A DNA stretch of 28,674 nt, taken from a virus. Location: positions 1-28,674 of the IMG/VR virus record IMGVR_UViG_3300047586_000052, one strand, 5' to 3'. Both the position numbers and the translations under genes were made by a program. The notes below the pieces were generated by a model. The model did not search any database and was not told the origin of the DNA. It saw only the letters and a list, made by a program, of their open reading frames with translations. Below, piece by piece: positions 18,837 to 24,323 of the stretch (within the stretch, counting starts at the first letter, position 1; every line of letters begins with the position of its first letter).

Positions 18837-18944
18837 CGACCTACAGGCTCCCCGTTGGGTTGAGAGTGAGGAGGGGCCGCGAGCCGCCTACGGTGGCAGA
18901 CGACTCGCGGTTTTGGGTGTGCCATGTGCCCGCGAGGGCCACGG

Positions 18945-19574
18945 CTAGATCTGCGGCTCCTTCGGGGCGCCGTAGCGCATCGTCATGGTGCCGCTGGTGT
19001 TGGTCGTGGCCACGACCGCGACGTGGGTACACCGCGGGATCGTGATGCTCGTGTCGGTCGTTCCCGACGACACGACCGCGGGGGATCCGTAGATGCCCCA
19101 AGTCGTGCCGCCGTCGAAGCTGACCTTCACCACGTAGGTCCCGACCCAGTTGGTCGAGTAGAGCCAGACGGTGGCAGGGCCGCAGCCTTGCACCGAGCAG
19201 GCGCCCGTGGTGGCCACGCCGGTCGCGATGTTCGCCCCGGCTCCGCAGGTCGTCTCGCCAACCATCTGCCGAGCACTGCGGGTGCGAGTCCCGCCGAGCC
19301 GGTAGCTGATCGTTCCGGTGCCGCCGTGGGCGGTGGTGTTGGCCCTCACCTGGAAGCAGGGCGGGAGCGGCCCGACCAGCTTCTCGGTGGTAGCCGTGCT
19401 GCCGAAGGTGTCCCAGTTGGTGCCGTCGACGGTCGTTTCCACCGTCGCGGTGGCCGTTCCGAAAGCGCCACCAATCGACACGTACACGTCGACCAAGTCG
19501 CCGATGGCAACGGCTGTTCCGACTCCGGTGGCGGTCGTGGTCTTGTCGCCAAGTGTTGCAGTTACAAGAGGCAT
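18945..19574 (-). CDS. Two-repeat beta structural protein next to the capsid gene
   Basis: The 209-residue protein has AAGGAG upstream of its ATG and lies 27 bases after the major capsid gene. It contains two similar halves. The first has TVETTVDGTNWDTFGS and ends GTISYRLGG; the second has VVKVSFDGGTTWGIYGS and ends TMTMRYGAP. Both share the order strand, DG(T)-W, strand, hydrophobic strand, Y/YG, so this looks like an internal domain duplication. Immunoglobulin-like or jelly-roll decoration folds are plausible. Placement directly after the capsid gene suggests a head decoration or head-fibre protein. No known family is recognised with confidence. Confidence 0.6.
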   Translation of the reverse strand: MPLVTATLGDKTTTATGVGTAVAIGDLVDVYVSIGGAFGTATATVETTVDGTNWDTFGSTATTEKLVGPLPPCFQVRANTTAHGGTGTISYRLGGTRTRSARQMVGETTCGAGANIATGVATTGACSVQGCGPATVWLYSTNWVGTYVVKVSFDGGTTWGIYGSPAVVSSGTTDTSITIPRCTHVAVVATTNTSGTMTMRYGAPKEPQI

Positions 19575-19601
19575 GGTATCTCCTTCGCCGTTTGCCGGCG
19601 A

Positions 19602-20669
19602 TTACAGGGCCACGTTGTAGAGATAGCCGCAGGAATTCGGGCTGCGCACCTGGAGCTGGATGTAGGTCACGATGGCGTAGGTGTCATAGTCACCCTTGCG
19701 ACCGAGCTTGATGATCTTCCCGGTGAGGCCCGTGCCCTTGGAGAGCGTCTTGCCGTCGGGGCCGACCTGGATGTTGCCGGTCATGTAATCGCTGGACGAC
19801 GGGAGCGGGATGTAGCGCATCCGCACTTCCTGATCGTTCAGGAACAGCATGGTCCCGGTCGTGGTCTCGGGGATCTTCACGTCGCGCACGATGGGGATGC
19901 CATCGAACTCGGCGATCTGAACGCCGCCGTCCAGCTTGATCGTGCGGCTGCCGAGGGTGACTTCGTTGACCCAGCGGCGCTGCGCATCGAACATCGCGCA
20001 GTACTTGTCGAAGCACTTGTTGCTGGCCGCGATGAAGGTCGGGGCTCGGCTGGCTTCGTCGGCCGCGATGATGGTCGAGATCATCTGGCGCATGACGGAG
20101 AGCGAGAGCGCGCCGCCCGAGGTCGTGGTCGCGTTGATGACGTTCCCGGCGAACTGGGTCACGGAACCCTTGTCGACGGTCGCGTAGGTGCCGGTCGCCA
20201 GGAGGGCGCCGTAGGTCGCGGTGATGAGGCCGGTCATCTGGACCGGGCTGGCAGCGGGGCTGCCGCTGAACATGTCGTAGGCGATGCCGGCGCCGAGGCG
20301 GGTCGCGCTGCGATCCAGCTCCCACATCTCGATGTTGGCCAGATCGGCGGGGTTGCCGGAGACGCGAGCCAGCGCCTGGCCGAGCCCGGTGAACCCGAAC
20401 GCGTCGTGGTAGGGGCGATACGCCAGGTAGGCGGTCGCCAGCGTGTCGGTGTTGACCACGCTGATGTCGGCGCCCTCGGCGAGAGCGGCGGTGGCGTGCG
20501 CGTCTGCGTCGCCGTAGGCAACTGCCCACTCGACGTTTTTGCCGTCGGCGGGAACCTTCGGGATGAATTGCAGCGTCGGACACGCGCGGTTGATGAGGCC
20601 CGCAACCTTGTTTTCGTACACGGTTGCGAGAACTGTGGTGAGCGTTGCAGCAGTCTGCGGACCGGCCAT
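19602..20669 (-). CDS. Major capsid protein
   Basis: I place the start at the ATG at 20669, with AAGGAG six bases upstream, giving 355 residues; an upstream in-frame start at 20750 adds a tail that does not look like capsid sequence. The N-terminus (MAGPQTAATLTTVLATVYEN) is followed by FIPKVPADGKNVEWAVAYGD, then an extended alpha/beta body. The C-terminal half has GVQIAEFDGIPIVRDVKIPE and MLFLNDQEVRMRYIPLP, typical of HK97-fold major capsid proteins of this size. It follows the scaffold gene after a 243-base gap containing a strong hairpin and possibly a promoter, which fits a product needed in high copy. Confidence 0.8.
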   Translation of the reverse strand: MAGPQTAATLTTVLATVYENKVAGLINRACPTLQFIPKVPADGKNVEWAVAYGDADAHATAALAEGADISVVNTDTLATAYLAYRPYHDAFGFTGLGQALARVSGNPADLANIEMWELDRSATRLGAGIAYDMFSGSPAASPVQMTGLITATYGALLATGTYATVDKGSVTQFAGNVINATTTSGGALSLSVMRQMISTIIAADEASRAPTFIAASNKCFDKYCAMFDAQRRWVNEVTLGSRTIKLDGGVQIAEFDGIPIVRDVKIPETTTGTMLFLNDQEVRMRYIPLPSSSDYMTGNIQVGPDGKTLSKGTGLTGKIIKLGRKGDYDTYAIVTYIQLQVRSPNSCGYLYNVAL

Positions 20670-20844
20670 GGTGGACTCCTTGTTGAAAATCCAAGAACAC
20701 GCGCCGAATGTGCCGCGCCCGCATTCTGGGTTGTTGAGGGTGCCCACCACCCTGCCCGGCTTGAGGTCCGGCCCCTTGCGATCCTACGCTGTCGCCTGCG
20801 TTCCAGGTTTGGCAGCCCGCCTGCCGTGAGTCCTTTTCAGCTCA

Positions 20845-20853
20845 CATATAGCA
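20845..20853 (-). promoter_or_regulatory. Possible extended -10 promoter for the capsid gene
   Basis: On the minus strand TGCTATATG at this position resembles an extended -10 element, 14 bases beyond the hairpin at 20867-20906 and about 175 bases before the capsid start. No convincing -35 is present, and host sigma factor preferences are unknown, so this is a weak candidate. Confidence 0.2.
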
Positions 20854-20866
20854 AGGTAGCACACGT

Positions 20867-20906
20867 CGCGGGCGGGATGTAAAGAAAAATCGTCATCTCG
20901 CCCGCG
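20867..20906. promoter_or_regulatory. Strong hairpin just after the scaffold gene
   Basis: CGCGGGCGGGATG (20867-20879) and CATCTCGCCCGCG (20894-20906) form a 13-pair stem with one mismatch (A-C in the minus transcript) and a 14-base loop that is U-rich in that transcript. It begins six bases after the scaffold stop codon. No U-tract follows on either side, so it is not a textbook intrinsic terminator. It could be an attenuator, a processing site or a 3' stabiliser. The rest of the 20670-20912 gap contains no gene. Confidence 0.6.
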
Positions 20907-22199: not shown

Positions 22200-22465
22200 G
22201 AGACGATCCTTGGTTTGGGTTCTGCGTTCTCGACGGCGGGAAACACGTTCACGAGTCGCAAGGTAGGAGCGCCGACGCTGTGGACCTCGCCCGCAAGCTC
22301 GGCGGCGACCTCGGTCCTGAACTCTACCCGGTCCACCGGCTCGACGAATTCGATCACGAAGCGGCTGGGGAAGGTGTGCTTCTCCCGGTCCCACGTGTCG
22401 CCCACCTCGATGTAGCACTCGCGGATCTTCGGGTCGTTCGTCTGGATTGGGATGTGGGTCAGCAT
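22196..22465 (-). CDS. Small head-region protein, function unknown
   Basis: The chosen start is the ATG at 22465, with AAAGGAGG ten bases upstream and one base after the stop of the morphogenesis gene; the longer frame to 22567 is a shadow. The 89-residue product (MLTHIPIQTNDPKIRECYIE at the start) is beta-rich and charged, with no recognisable domain. It is embedded between the intein-bearing head protein and a His/Cys-rich protein and overlaps the latter as ATGA. Only the coding status is well supported. Confidence 0.6.
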   Translation of the reverse strand: MLTHIPIQTNDPKIRECYIEVGDTWDREKHTFPSRFVIEFVEPVDRVEFRTEVAAELAGEVHSVGAPTLRLVNVFPAVENAEPKPRIVS

Positions 22466-22466
22466 G

Positions 22467-24323
22467 TCAAGCGGCCCTCCTTTCTCTTTCCGCCGCGCGG
22501 GCCAGCGTCTCGGTGCTCGATGGGGTTGCGAAGGTGGGCCAGCCCTTACGCCACGCGCAGCGAACACACCTACAGTCGACGTGGGCTACCGTGTGTCCGA
22601 CCTTCGCGTAGTGCTGCCGCATGCCGCGCTTCTTGCTGAACGTCACCCACCTAGCCTCGTAGTATTCGTCGAGCGCGACCACCTGACCGTCGAGGCTCGC
22701 GCACATGGGGCACAGCCGGCCGTCGTGGGCGGCGTCCCATCGCTCCATCAGCTTGGGGTCGTCTGCGCTGGCCTCGACGAGCGCGCGGTGCTGGTATTCC
22801 GCAGCGGCGTTCATGGTGTTTCCAGTGTATGCTCCGTGGATGGTGAAGTAACCGGCGTCCGTCGAAAGGTTGAACACATGCCCGCTAAATTCCCTGACAG
22901 TCACAGAGAGCACGCGATCGAACTCTACCGATCTGGGGAGACCATCAAAGGTGTTGCCAGTGCACTCCATACCAGCGTTCCTTGGGCATGGCGCCAAATC
23001 CATCGATCCGGGATCTCTAGGACCAACTCCGAGGCCAGGCGCATCTTTCGAGCACGCGGAGGAAAGCCCGGAAACTACCGTTTCGATATCAATGATGGGG
23101 AAATTTCCCGACGGTACCTCGGAGGAGAAAATACCAGCCAACTTGGTCGAAGTCTTGAACTGAACCCCTCGGTGATTCGTGAGCACCTGATAGCCTCCGG
23201 TGTGCACCTGCGAAGCTGGGCAGATGCACACCCCGCCACGCTGATCAAGCAGTCGCATGCACGTGGGGCAGAAACGCGAACTCGCAAGCGCGGCTGGGGT
23301 GAGGACACGCTCTACCAGTGGCCTGTAGAGCGCGGAGAAATCCCCGATCTGCAATGCCCCGTTGGTACACGCAATATCGACATGGCCATCAATTCCGTCG
23401 CCGTGGAAGTCTGGCTTTCCAGTGCGTCGCCGTTCGAGGACACCTACTGCCGAGAGAGAATCAAATATCTCGCCAATCTTGGCTGGACGTCCTTCTACGT
23501 TTGGATCGCCAGAAGAACCCGAGTGCTTCTCCCGTGCGTCGCAGATCAGGTAATCGTTTTCTGTCAAGAGGTTCGCGCCCGTCCATCCCGACCTCGCCAG
23601 CATCGGGTGATTCGGGGTTGTGGTGAACTTGCGGCCCTTGCTGGTGATGATCTCAATTACGGGGCCATTGTACGCCCGTCTGTGGACTGCCGTTACCATC
23701 GCGGAATCAACAAGGGTGTCGCCGACTAAACACTCGGTGCGCGCCAGACTCTCGGCGTCCCACCGTTCCCCGTGGAACACGTGCGGCAGCTTCGCCTGTA
23801 GGCGCCTCGTCAGTTCGTCGATGGTCTCGCCGCGGGACCGGCTGACCGCGAGCTGGAATCGCGCCTTCTCGCCGATGCTGCCCGCGTATCTCTGCGCGCT
23901 CGACTCGAATCGGGGCCACAGGATGCGGCGGCCCTCGGCGAGAATGTCCGCCTCCTCGAAGGCGAGGGGTGCCACCGTGCCCTCGAAGATGGTCCCAAGC
24001 TGCATCCACTCGCGCTGAACGTTGTGCAGGGACAACGGCCCGATGTGCTTCTTTGCGGCGTCTTTCAAGCTGTGCTCGACGGCCGCCTTGATCTCGGCCT
24101 CGTGGACGGCGCGGTTCAGGACTGCGAGCGCGTTTTTGTATCTCGCCGCCGTGAACGTCTCGCCCGAGTGGCTGGCCAGCCATTGGCGCAAGTCCTTCTC
24201 GACTTCCTTCTGCGCCGACGCGAGCACGGGAAGAATGCGCAGGAGCGCGGGTCGCTCCAGGTTCTGCATGCTCTGGACGGTGGTGTCGAGGACACGGCGA
24301 ACCTGTGCGCGCACCGATGCCAT
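22467..24323 (-). CDS. Mu F / SPP1 gp7-like head morphogenesis protein precursor, interrupted by an intein
   Basis: The 618-residue precursor divides into an N-extein (residues 1-197), an intein (198-502) and a C-extein (503-618). Joined, the exteins give a 313-residue minor head protein. The N-extein is helical and ends RWDAESLARTE, the conserved ARTE site of this family; the C-extein resumes TMNAAAEYQHRAL. Its C-terminal part has WDAAHDGRLCPMCASLDGQV and AHVDCRCVRCAWRKG, the zinc-binding tail of Mu F-like proteins (CxxC, then H-x2-C-x-C). The protein sits inside the portal vertex and is needed for correct DNA packaging. It starts three bases downstream of the previous stop. Without splicing the conserved ARTE motif would be split, so function should depend on intein removal. 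Confidence 0.85.
   Translation of the reverse strand: MASVRAQVRRVLDTTVQSMQNLERPALLRILPVLASAQKEVEKDLRQWLASHSGETFTAARYKNALAVLNRAVHEAEIKAAVEHSLKDAAKKHIGPLSLHNVQREWMQLGTIFEGTVAPLAFEEADILAEGRRILWPRFESSAQRYAGSIGEKARFQLAVSRSRGETIDELTRRLQAKLPHVFHGERWDAESLARTECLVGDTLVDSAMVTAVHRRAYNGPVIEIITSKGRKFTTTPNHPMLARSGWTGANLLTENDYLICDAREKHSGSSGDPNVEGRPAKIGEIFDSLSAVGVLERRRTGKPDFHGDGIDGHVDIACTNGALQIGDFSALYRPLVERVLTPAALASSRFCPTCMRLLDQRGGVCICPASQVHTGGYQVLTNHRGVQFKTSTKLAGIFSSEVPSGNFPIIDIETVVSGLSSACSKDAPGLGVGPRDPGSMDLAPCPRNAGMECTGNTFDGLPRSVEFDRVLSVTVREFSGHVFNLSTDAGYFTIHGAYTGNTMNAAAEYQHRALVEASADDPKLMERWDAAHDGRLCPMCASLDGQVVALDEYYEARWVTFSKKRGMRQHYAKVGHTVAHVDCRCVRCAWRKGWPTFATPSSTETLARAAERERRAA
22864..22869 (+). promoter_or_regulatory. 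Ribosome binding site of the antisense endonuclease gene
   Basis: GAAAGG lies eight bases before the ATG at 22878, on the strand opposite the intein. It defines the start of the nuclease gene and argues against the longer open frame that begins at 22452. Confidence 0.55.
22878..23729 (+). CDS. Vsr-like (EDxHD-type) homing endonuclease encoded antisense within the intein
   Basis: The 283-residue product starts at an ATG with GAAAGG eight bases upstream. Residues about 12-44 (ELYRSGETIKGVASALHTSV, then WRQIHRSGI) form one helix-turn-helix and residues about 74-110 (EISRRYLGGENTSQLGRSLE, then REHLIASGV) a second. A basic linker follows. The nuclease region (142-250) has the PD-(D/E)xK/Vsr-like pattern: E142, D168 in CPVGTRNIDMAI and E177 in VAVEVW, then RIKYLANLGWTSFYVWI and a final QHRVIRGCGE. 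This matches homing nucleases of the Vsr-like family related to I-Bth0305I. The usual H or K after the Glu is replaced by W179, so activity is uncertain. It lies wholly inside the 915-base intein, on the other strand, and would drive spread of the intein. Confidence 0.8.
   Translation: MPAKFPDSHREHAIELYRSGETIKGVASALHTSVPWAWRQIHRSGISRTNSEARRIFRARGGKPGNYRFDINDGEISRRYLGGENTSQLGRSLELNPSVIREHLIASGVHLRSWADAHPATLIKQSHARGAETRTRKRGWGEDTLYQWPVERGEIPDLQCPVGTRNIDMAINSVAVEVWLSSASPFEDTYCRERIKYLANLGWTSFYVWIARRTRVLLPCVADQVIVFCQEVRARPSRPRQHRVIRGCGELAALAGDDLNYGAIVRPSVDCRYHRGINKGVAD

Follow-up and report, generated by a model that had tools for sequence, protein, structure and literature searches.

A putative homing endonuclease gene encoded antisense to an intein in a phage capsid gene

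In the mobile inteins of the textbooks, the endonuclease is an in-frame LAGLIDADG or HNH domain and forms part of the excised protein, PI-SceI being an example. The locus analysed here raises the question of whether an intein can instead be paired with an endonuclease that is read from the opposite strand of the same bases. It lies in the IMG/VR virus record IMGVR_UViG_3300047586_000052, whose entire length of 28,674 bases was analysed (hereafter, the window) and whose minus strand carries genes for terminase, portal, major head and baseplate proteins. On this strand, a gene for a Mu F-like minor capsid protein is interrupted by an intein, and the plus strand of that intein contains a long open reading frame (ORF) for a putative nuclease (Table 1), an arrangement proposed in an initial annotation of the DNA. 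Judging from the comparative sequence evidence described below, the element is very probably a mobile intein that has its homing endonuclease encoded apart from the intein protein, by a gene that lies inside the intein on the other strand and is aligned with it codon for codon. In the family to which it belongs, one intein harbours a protein-coding gene on each of its two strands, and both genes are under selection.

Two coding sequences in one intein

The minus-strand frame of the element is free of stop codons and runs from Cys1 through the block B motif TPNH (residues 39-42) and the block F motif GHVFNL (residues 284-289) to an Asn305|Thr junction. Together with a match to the Pfam family Intein_splicing (E 8e-8), these motifs bear out the 305-residue intein of the initial annotation. 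Among 157 relatives, Thr39 and His42 are conserved in 100% of the sequences, and the +1 residue is Cys in 150, Ser in 4 and Thr in 3. The penultimate position of block G is occupied by Gly in the window, whereas most relatives have His (His 105, Ser 37, Gly 4 of about 157). A penultimate His is common but not universal in inteins, and since inteins without it are known, the Gly is not disqualifying. In a model generated with AlphaFold2 (AF2), the two Hint halves reach predicted local distance difference test (pLDDT) scores above 92, with residues 152-262 remaining below 50. A Foldseek search with this model returned the RadA, GyrA, RecA and DnaB inteins as top matches, at a probability of ~1.0 and with E-values only from 2e-3 upward, in agreement with a Hint fold. 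The host ORF matches Pfam Phage_Mu_F as it stands (E 5e-6) and, more strongly, after splicing in silico (E 5e-9), and the spliced protein aligns without a break across the ARTE|T junction with an inteinless homologue from a Xanthomonas phage. The insertion is thus precise, as is also apparent from the presence or absence of an 816-bp element in Jerseyvirus genomes. The window element is therefore a complete class-1-type intein, for which self-splicing is predicted from the conserved residues and the modelled fold.

The plus-strand ORF ends with a TAA codon located opposite intein codon 2 and overlaps 852 of the 915 base pairs of the intein, codon on codon. Its 283 codons, the preceding GAAAGG motif and the extent of the overlap agree with the initial annotation; upstream of its start, the frame stays open to position 22452 (425 codons). 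The two helix-turn-helix repeats and the Vsr-like nuclease core that had been recognized in its product are likewise supported, and a profile comparison that could have refuted its identity as a nuclease instead linked it and its relatives to nucleases. At its N terminus, the protein matches Pfam HTH_23 (E 2e-4) and, in a profile search, the CRISPR repeat-binding protein Cbp1 (2LVS; E 5.8e-8), and AF2 places helices at residues 7-18, 23-29, 34-43, 73-81, 86-93 and 97-106. A profile of 60 aligned antisense proteins, searched against PDB sequences, matched the endonuclease-like protein 3HRL (E 1.6e-8) and the 'mobile intron protein' 3R3P (E 3.5e-6), which we take to be the catalytic domain of I-Bth0305I. 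Searches of PDB, PHROGs and NCBIfam with the single nuclease sequence gave nothing convincing, and matches were obtained only with the alignment profile. Similarly, a Foldseek search with the whole AF2 model (mean pLDDT 84.7) yielded no E-value below 1e-3, the best relevant match being 3HRL (probability 0.97), so that the profile search constitutes the stronger evidence. Pfam domains detected among the 60 proteins comprise REase_MTES_1575 (in 50), HTH_7 (in 35) and DUF559 (in 20). The putative catalytic acidic residues are highly conserved (E142 in 57/60, D168 and E177 each in 60/60). By contrast, the His of a GGxWH motif is present in 42/60 relatives and replaced by Ser in the window, and the columns that follow contain no conserved Asp. 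For these two reasons, we describe the enzyme as Vsr-like and apparently related to the EDxHD group, without asserting that it is a member. In the alignment, 3R3P itself has Ala in place of both D168 and the GGxWH His, which may reflect an inactivated crystal construct.

The association of the two genes extends far beyond the window. A tblastn search with the plus-strand protein retrieved sequences opposite to Mu F-like inteins in phages of Gordonia, Salmonella, Pseudomonas, Vibrio and other hosts, and the intein as query retrieved the same loci on the other strand. Scanning IMG/VR with an intein alignment yielded 423 relatives, and in all of the best 80, which were kept for analysis, the antisense ORF matched the nuclease profile at E <= 1e-33 and invariably lay in register 0, that is, codon against codon. 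The reverse approach made use of a degenerate DNA motif of the nuclease gene, because the nuclease alignment contained no stretch that was conserved enough for a scan of the collection. This second scan, which was blind to inteins and scored nucleases at E < 1e-6, identified the nuclease in 118 of 119 viral loci and in 29 of 44 loci from bacterial genomes, the other 15 bacterial pattern matches being unrelated. An antisense intein, always in the identical codon register, was found at every one of 246 nuclease loci (118 viral, 29 bacterial, 19 from phages or plasmids and the 80 selected by their inteins), a total in which some contigs recur between scans. Another 8 phage inteins, picked from the hits of the intein search, likewise have the nuclease in register 0, although in one of them, from GE_vB_M5 (a record marked unverified), both genes contain a frameshift. 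According to their titles, the bacterial records with the element stem from actinobacteria, Firmicutes, Chloroflexi, Acidobacteria, Nitrospinia, proteobacteria and others. In the viral or bacterial contigs scanned, no relative of the nuclease was found that stands free of an intein; two weak intein-less matches were set aside, as they failed the threshold of E < 1e-6. In the database records examined, the antisense-nuclease loci go by head or capsid protein labels, and the nuclease is not annotated. In addition, the profile of the PHROG family phrog_15127, a phage 'head protein' family, matches the intein (E 5e-26); this family appears to contain the intein, and its members may be mis-described.

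To what extent open frames on both strands would arise without selection was estimated by synonymous recoding of each intein with the codons of its own host gene. For the window intein, 2.2 antisense stops were expected and none was seen, although 10% of the recoded sequences were open as well (P = 0.10). The initial annotation had named the free occurrence of opposite-strand stops in homologous inteins as a point that would speak against it. Such stops are not free to occur, with 20 seen versus 951 expected in 153 non-redundant relatives and 133 loci open versus 7 expected. Moreover, several of these 20 are the stop codons of the nuclease genes themselves, which can sit well inside the N-terminal zone of the intein. 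Even relatives of low G+C content (0.40-0.46) are almost all open on the antisense strand, despite about 10-26 stops expected in each. Reciprocally, the intein frame is free of stops over the nuclease span in 147/147 loci selected by the nuclease, with 407 stops expected and 11 of 99 loci expected to be open among the 99 loci that could be tested.

Substitution patterns point in the same direction. Ratios of nonsynonymous to synonymous substitution rates (dN/dS) were determined by the Nei-Gojobori method for 17 independent pairs of related inteins, each frame being treated as if it stood alone; this strand-by-strand measurement, envisaged in the initial annotation, supports both strands in the relatives. 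The host gene gave values of 0.18 for the sense frame and 1.41 for the antisense control. Within the splicing zones of the intein, the ratio was 0.31 for the intein frame and 0.62 for the nuclease frame, whereas in its middle part the pattern was reversed (0.86 and 0.29, respectively), a change observed in 16 of the 17 pairs. Substitutions also cluster at different codon positions in the different zones. The coding load hence shifts from strand to strand along the element, with its ends mainly devoted to splicing and its middle mainly to the nuclease. The AF2 models accord with this division, as the ends of the intein are predicted with confidence, its residues 152-262 are not, and the antisense protein folds.

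Both frames appear to meet in a stretch of 12 base pairs that is nearly invariant in the 157 relatives (GTCGCCGTGGAA) and encodes VAVE, with the putative active-site Glu, in the nuclease and FHGD in the intein (Table 1). The intein residues are conserved to 94-96% and those of the nuclease to 86-100%, with the complete FHGD sequence kept in 135/157 inteins. The VAVE codons are nearly fixed even at their third bases (GTC in 133, GCC in 145, GTG in 147 and GAA in 150 of 157), unlike those for other invariant nuclease residues (E142, G83), which are free at this position. We therefore dropped the idea that the middle of the intein is a pure shadow of the nuclease gene, because FHGD fixes third bases of nuclease codons and the middle intein dN/dS of 0.86 remains below the control value of 1.41. 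In one relative (L056:588-1410), the intein frame and FHGD are intact and the nuclease gene is interrupted after 61 codons, making it a candidate for an early stage of nuclease loss.

Table 1. Features of the intein locus (window coordinates)
Feature	Position	Strand	Details
Host gene, Mu F-like minor capsid protein	22467..24323	-	618 codons, 313 after splicing; interrupted by intein
Intein, 305 residues	22818..23732	-	From Cys1 through Asn305; insertion site ARTE|T (Glu|Thr), with Thr as the +1 residue
N-terminal Hint half (blocks A, B; ~codons 1-65)	23538..23732	-	AF2 pLDDT above 90; antisense to C-terminal tail of nuclease
C-terminal Hint part (blocks F, G; last 40 codons)	22818..22937	-	AF2 model, family dN/dS
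Putative antisense nuclease gene	22878..23729	+	ATG start, 283 codons plus TAA
Two predicted helix-turn-helix DNA-binding segments	22878..23220	+	Residues 1-114
Vsr-like nuclease core	23295..23588	+	~Residues 140-237; E142, D168, E177, R194
Dual-constrained 12 bp	23397..23408	+	Nuclease Val-Ala-Val-Glu 174-177; antisense to intein Phe-His-Gly-Asp 109-112
Shine-Dalgarno-like GAAAGG	22864..22869	+	Antisense to block F Leu-Ser; eight bases before ATG
ATG start	22878..22880	+	Antisense to block F His285 codon CAT
Weak -10-like TATGCT (4 of 6), preceded by TG	22828..22833	+	Antisense to block G

Start signals in the splicing motifs and mobility of the element

The 5' end of the nuclease gene lies opposite the C-terminal splicing blocks of the intein, whose family motifs are GHVYNL (block F) and ANGIIxHN (block G), and the codon choice in these blocks suggests that they also serve the expression of the nuclease. 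The block F His is encoded by CAT, which reads ATG on the other strand, in 105 of 134 cases (55.6 expected), and in the remainder by CAC, which reads GTG, whereas the invariant block B His, which has no such role, is CAC in 106/131. The Leu codon of block F is CTC or CTT, corresponding to GAGG or AAGG in antisense, in 127/141 cases versus 52 expected, a value above all of 200,000 simulations. In block G, an antisense TATAAT falls exactly at Ile-Ile. This sequence is complete in 28 loci (2.7 expected; highest value in 2000 simulations, 9), at least 5 of its 6 positions match in 56 loci (20 expected), and the extended TGn form occurs in 43 (7.4 expected). Among 40 unrelated inteins from bacterial genomes, by comparison, no TATAAT and only one match of at least 5 of 6 positions were found, the Leu codon was CTC or CTT in 8/21 (6.5 expected), and a His precedes the block F Val in 2/40, as opposed to 138/157 in the family. 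Blocks F and G thus encode, in antisense, the translation-start signals of the nuclease gene and often also its -10 box, with the promoter function suggested by sequence and position. The intein of an uncultured Chromatium (L247; CAIUAY010000004), which likewise has 305 residues and occupies the same type of capsid insertion site as that of the window (E|T, TGN ending), shows a full antisense TATAAT at the -10 position.

The initial annotation had proposed that the element would move as one unit, and sequence comparisons of closely related phages argue for such mobility, revealing both a patchy distribution and transfer from one host gene to another. Salmonella Jersey-like phages possess the host gene either with an exact 816-bp insert (celemicas) or without it (S101, horsemountain and others), at 93.8% identity. 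Between E. coli phage Snoke and Salmonella phage LSPA1, the element is 97.4% identical, whereas the flanking parts of the host gene share 90% and 79% identity; likewise, the element is 96.7% identical in two Vibrio phages whose host genes are 86% identical. In Gordonia phages, by contrast, two inteins that are only ~50% alike occupy one site in host genes with 91-97% identity. Apart from capsid genes, the element resides in genes for dCMP deaminase, uracil-DNA glycosylases, prohead protease and terminase. In the two uracil-DNA glycosylase genes concerned (L079 and L104; Pfam UDG, E 7.5e-31 and 2e-36), it splits the motif NTV(R/K)|CRPP. A further locus (L002:616-1968; Virus Rctr197k, KX853510) carries the label 'putative head morphogenesis protein', which probably derives from the intein, as the spliced host protein is a dCMP deaminase. 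Yet another gene (L103:148-1882) apparently contains two antisense-nuclease inteins ~930 bp apart, and the antisense frame over the second one is open for 1059 codons. The wide distribution of the arrangement, the promoter, ribosome site and start within blocks F and G, and the reading of most of the intein middle as a shadow of the nuclease gene all go beyond the initial annotation.

Based on these observations, we propose that the capsid transcript would be translated straight through, after which the two ends of the intein would fold as a Hint domain and splice themselves out. On the opposite strand, a separate translation start in blocks F and G, often accompanied by a -10 box, would give rise to a protein with helix-turn-helix segments and a Vsr-like nuclease domain. 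This nuclease probably cleaves those copies of the host gene that lack the intein, and their repair on the intein-bearing template would then insert both genes at once. Given that the two transcripts would collide, one could speculate that the nuclease is probably expressed when the late capsid operon is quiet. Whether these properties define a general class of two-strand mobile elements we consider an even call: in such a class, splicing motifs would double as promoter, ribosome site and start of the nuclease gene, each insertion would bring along both genes together with their signals, colliding transcripts may keep the synthesis of host protein and nuclease apart in time, and the 12 bases for FHGD and VAVE may serve two proteins.

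Alternative explanations

An obvious alternative is that the antisense frame represents a by-product of phase-aligned antisense, high G+C content and codon bias, with its conservation being the mirror image of that of the intein. The recoding result for the window and the G+C content of its host gene (0.67) are compatible with this idea, and long open frames exist elsewhere on the plus strand, for instance one of 652 codons at 18924-20882, antisense to the major head protein gene, which is probably an artefact of G+C-related codon bias and cautions about open antisense frames in this DNA. However, low-GC relatives are almost all open, the middle of the intein is more constrained in the nuclease frame than in the intein frame, opposite to the antisense control, and the product has independent nuclease homology and translation signals. 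A chance ORF is thus rejected for the family by the stop counts and dN/dS values, even though the window alone gives P = 0.10, and we regard a mere by-product as barely credible. Alternatively, the intein could really be split, such that its middle is untranslated on the minus strand and the nuclease gene is situated between two half-intein genes. While this arrangement would fit the predicted disorder of residues 152-262 and the weak constraint on the middle of the intein frame, it is most unlikely in view of the frame being unbroken in 147/147 loci, with 11 of 99 expected to be open, an observation that leads us to reject it. Furthermore, the dN/dS of this region still lies below the antisense control, FHGD is conserved along with the fixed third bases of nuclease codons, and the annotated loci are single proteins. 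Finally, the antisense gene may be real without encoding a homing nuclease, acting instead as a regulator of the capsid gene or a restriction-like defence nuclease, or persisting as a decayed relic. Its N-terminal helix-turn-helix could serve regulation, REase_MTES_1575 is detected in 50/60 of its products, the window copy lacks the conserved His, and L056 has an internal stop. Nevertheless, its invariable one-to-one pairing with a mobile intein, seen across several host genes that are unrelated to one another, the presence or absence of the element in near-identical genes, the signature of purifying selection and the closest solved homing enzyme being I-Bth0305I render this possibility very unlikely.

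Several points weigh against a mobile intein with an antisense homing endonuclease, most of them concerning the window itself. Its open antisense frame, taken singly, is weakly surprising and no proof of a gene, and all codon expectations assume that the codon usage of the host gene applies to the intein. A single-sequence search of IMG/VR returned no relatives of the window, nor did one with the spliced capsid protein as query, and since no close relative was found, the dN/dS values apply to the family and not directly to the window copy. The Gly preceding Asn305 is unusual, and the nuclease, lacking the conserved His, could be impaired. While the nuclease gene has a good ribosome site and a good start codon (ATG), its -10 box, TATGCT, is weak, and a consensus scan of the window revealed no complete sigma-70 promoter. 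In addition, many of the loci were chosen by the nuclease motif, which inflates the counts on the nuclease side, whereas this bias does not affect the 80 loci selected by their inteins or the reciprocal test for stops.

Significance and comparison with known systems

The kind of element described here, a mobile intein with a homing nuclease, is known, but we have not found its architecture described. In the literature searched, no intein is described as having its endonuclease in antisense; this literature did not include a 2025 preprint on non-canonical actinophage inteins, so that a prior description is possible. This preprint, by Gosselin et al. (2025; doi 10.1101/2025.01.02.630785), deals with inteins of 'non-canonical architecture' and, as cited in PMC11855218, with overlapping reading frames in actinobacteriophages; it may include the Gordonia cases and thus describe part of the antisense-nuclease inteins.

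The arrangement is of interest in several respects. The nuclease is encoded by an independent opposite-strand gene that occupies more than 90% of the bases of the intein, and regulatory signals appear to be written into the motifs of a catalytic protein. It is old and common, being present in hundreds of phages and prophages, in many phage genera and bacterial phyla and in several host genes. An intein without a visible endonuclease domain can no longer be assumed to be immobile, and its opposite strand should be re-read. The family also provides an exceptionally clear natural example of complete antisense overlap between two coding sequences, in which the constraint can be measured separately for the two frames, as well as a new set of compact DNA-binding nucleases, likely site-specific, that are paired with inteins.

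Among known systems, the ShiLan insertion in phage methylases contains an HNH nuclease hidden in another frame, keeps the host frame open and has no splicing domain (PMC11855218). The element studied here shares with it a putative homing nuclease hidden in another reading frame and a host frame that is kept open, but it differs in using the opposite strand, in the Vsr-like nature of its nuclease and in being a bona fide intein. A second parallel is provided by fractured genes, reportedly described by Dassa et al. in 2009, in which split inteins have a free-standing Vsr-like endonuclease gene between their two halves. In both cases, a Vsr-like nuclease is paired with an intein and would be made as a separate protein; here, however, the intein is one unbroken frame, whose bases are common to the nuclease. 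The nuclease itself resembles I-Bth0305I (3R3P) in a profile match across the catalytic core, a conserved E...D...E pattern and separate DNA-binding modules, yet the family has tandem helix-turn-helix segments, lies antisense in inteins and, in the window, lacks the His. Finally, like inteins of the PI-SceI type, the element comprises a Hint splicing domain, shows one precise insertion in an essential gene and presumably homes by means of its encoded endonuclease, but this endonuclease would be a separate protein, read from the opposite strand with start signals of its own.

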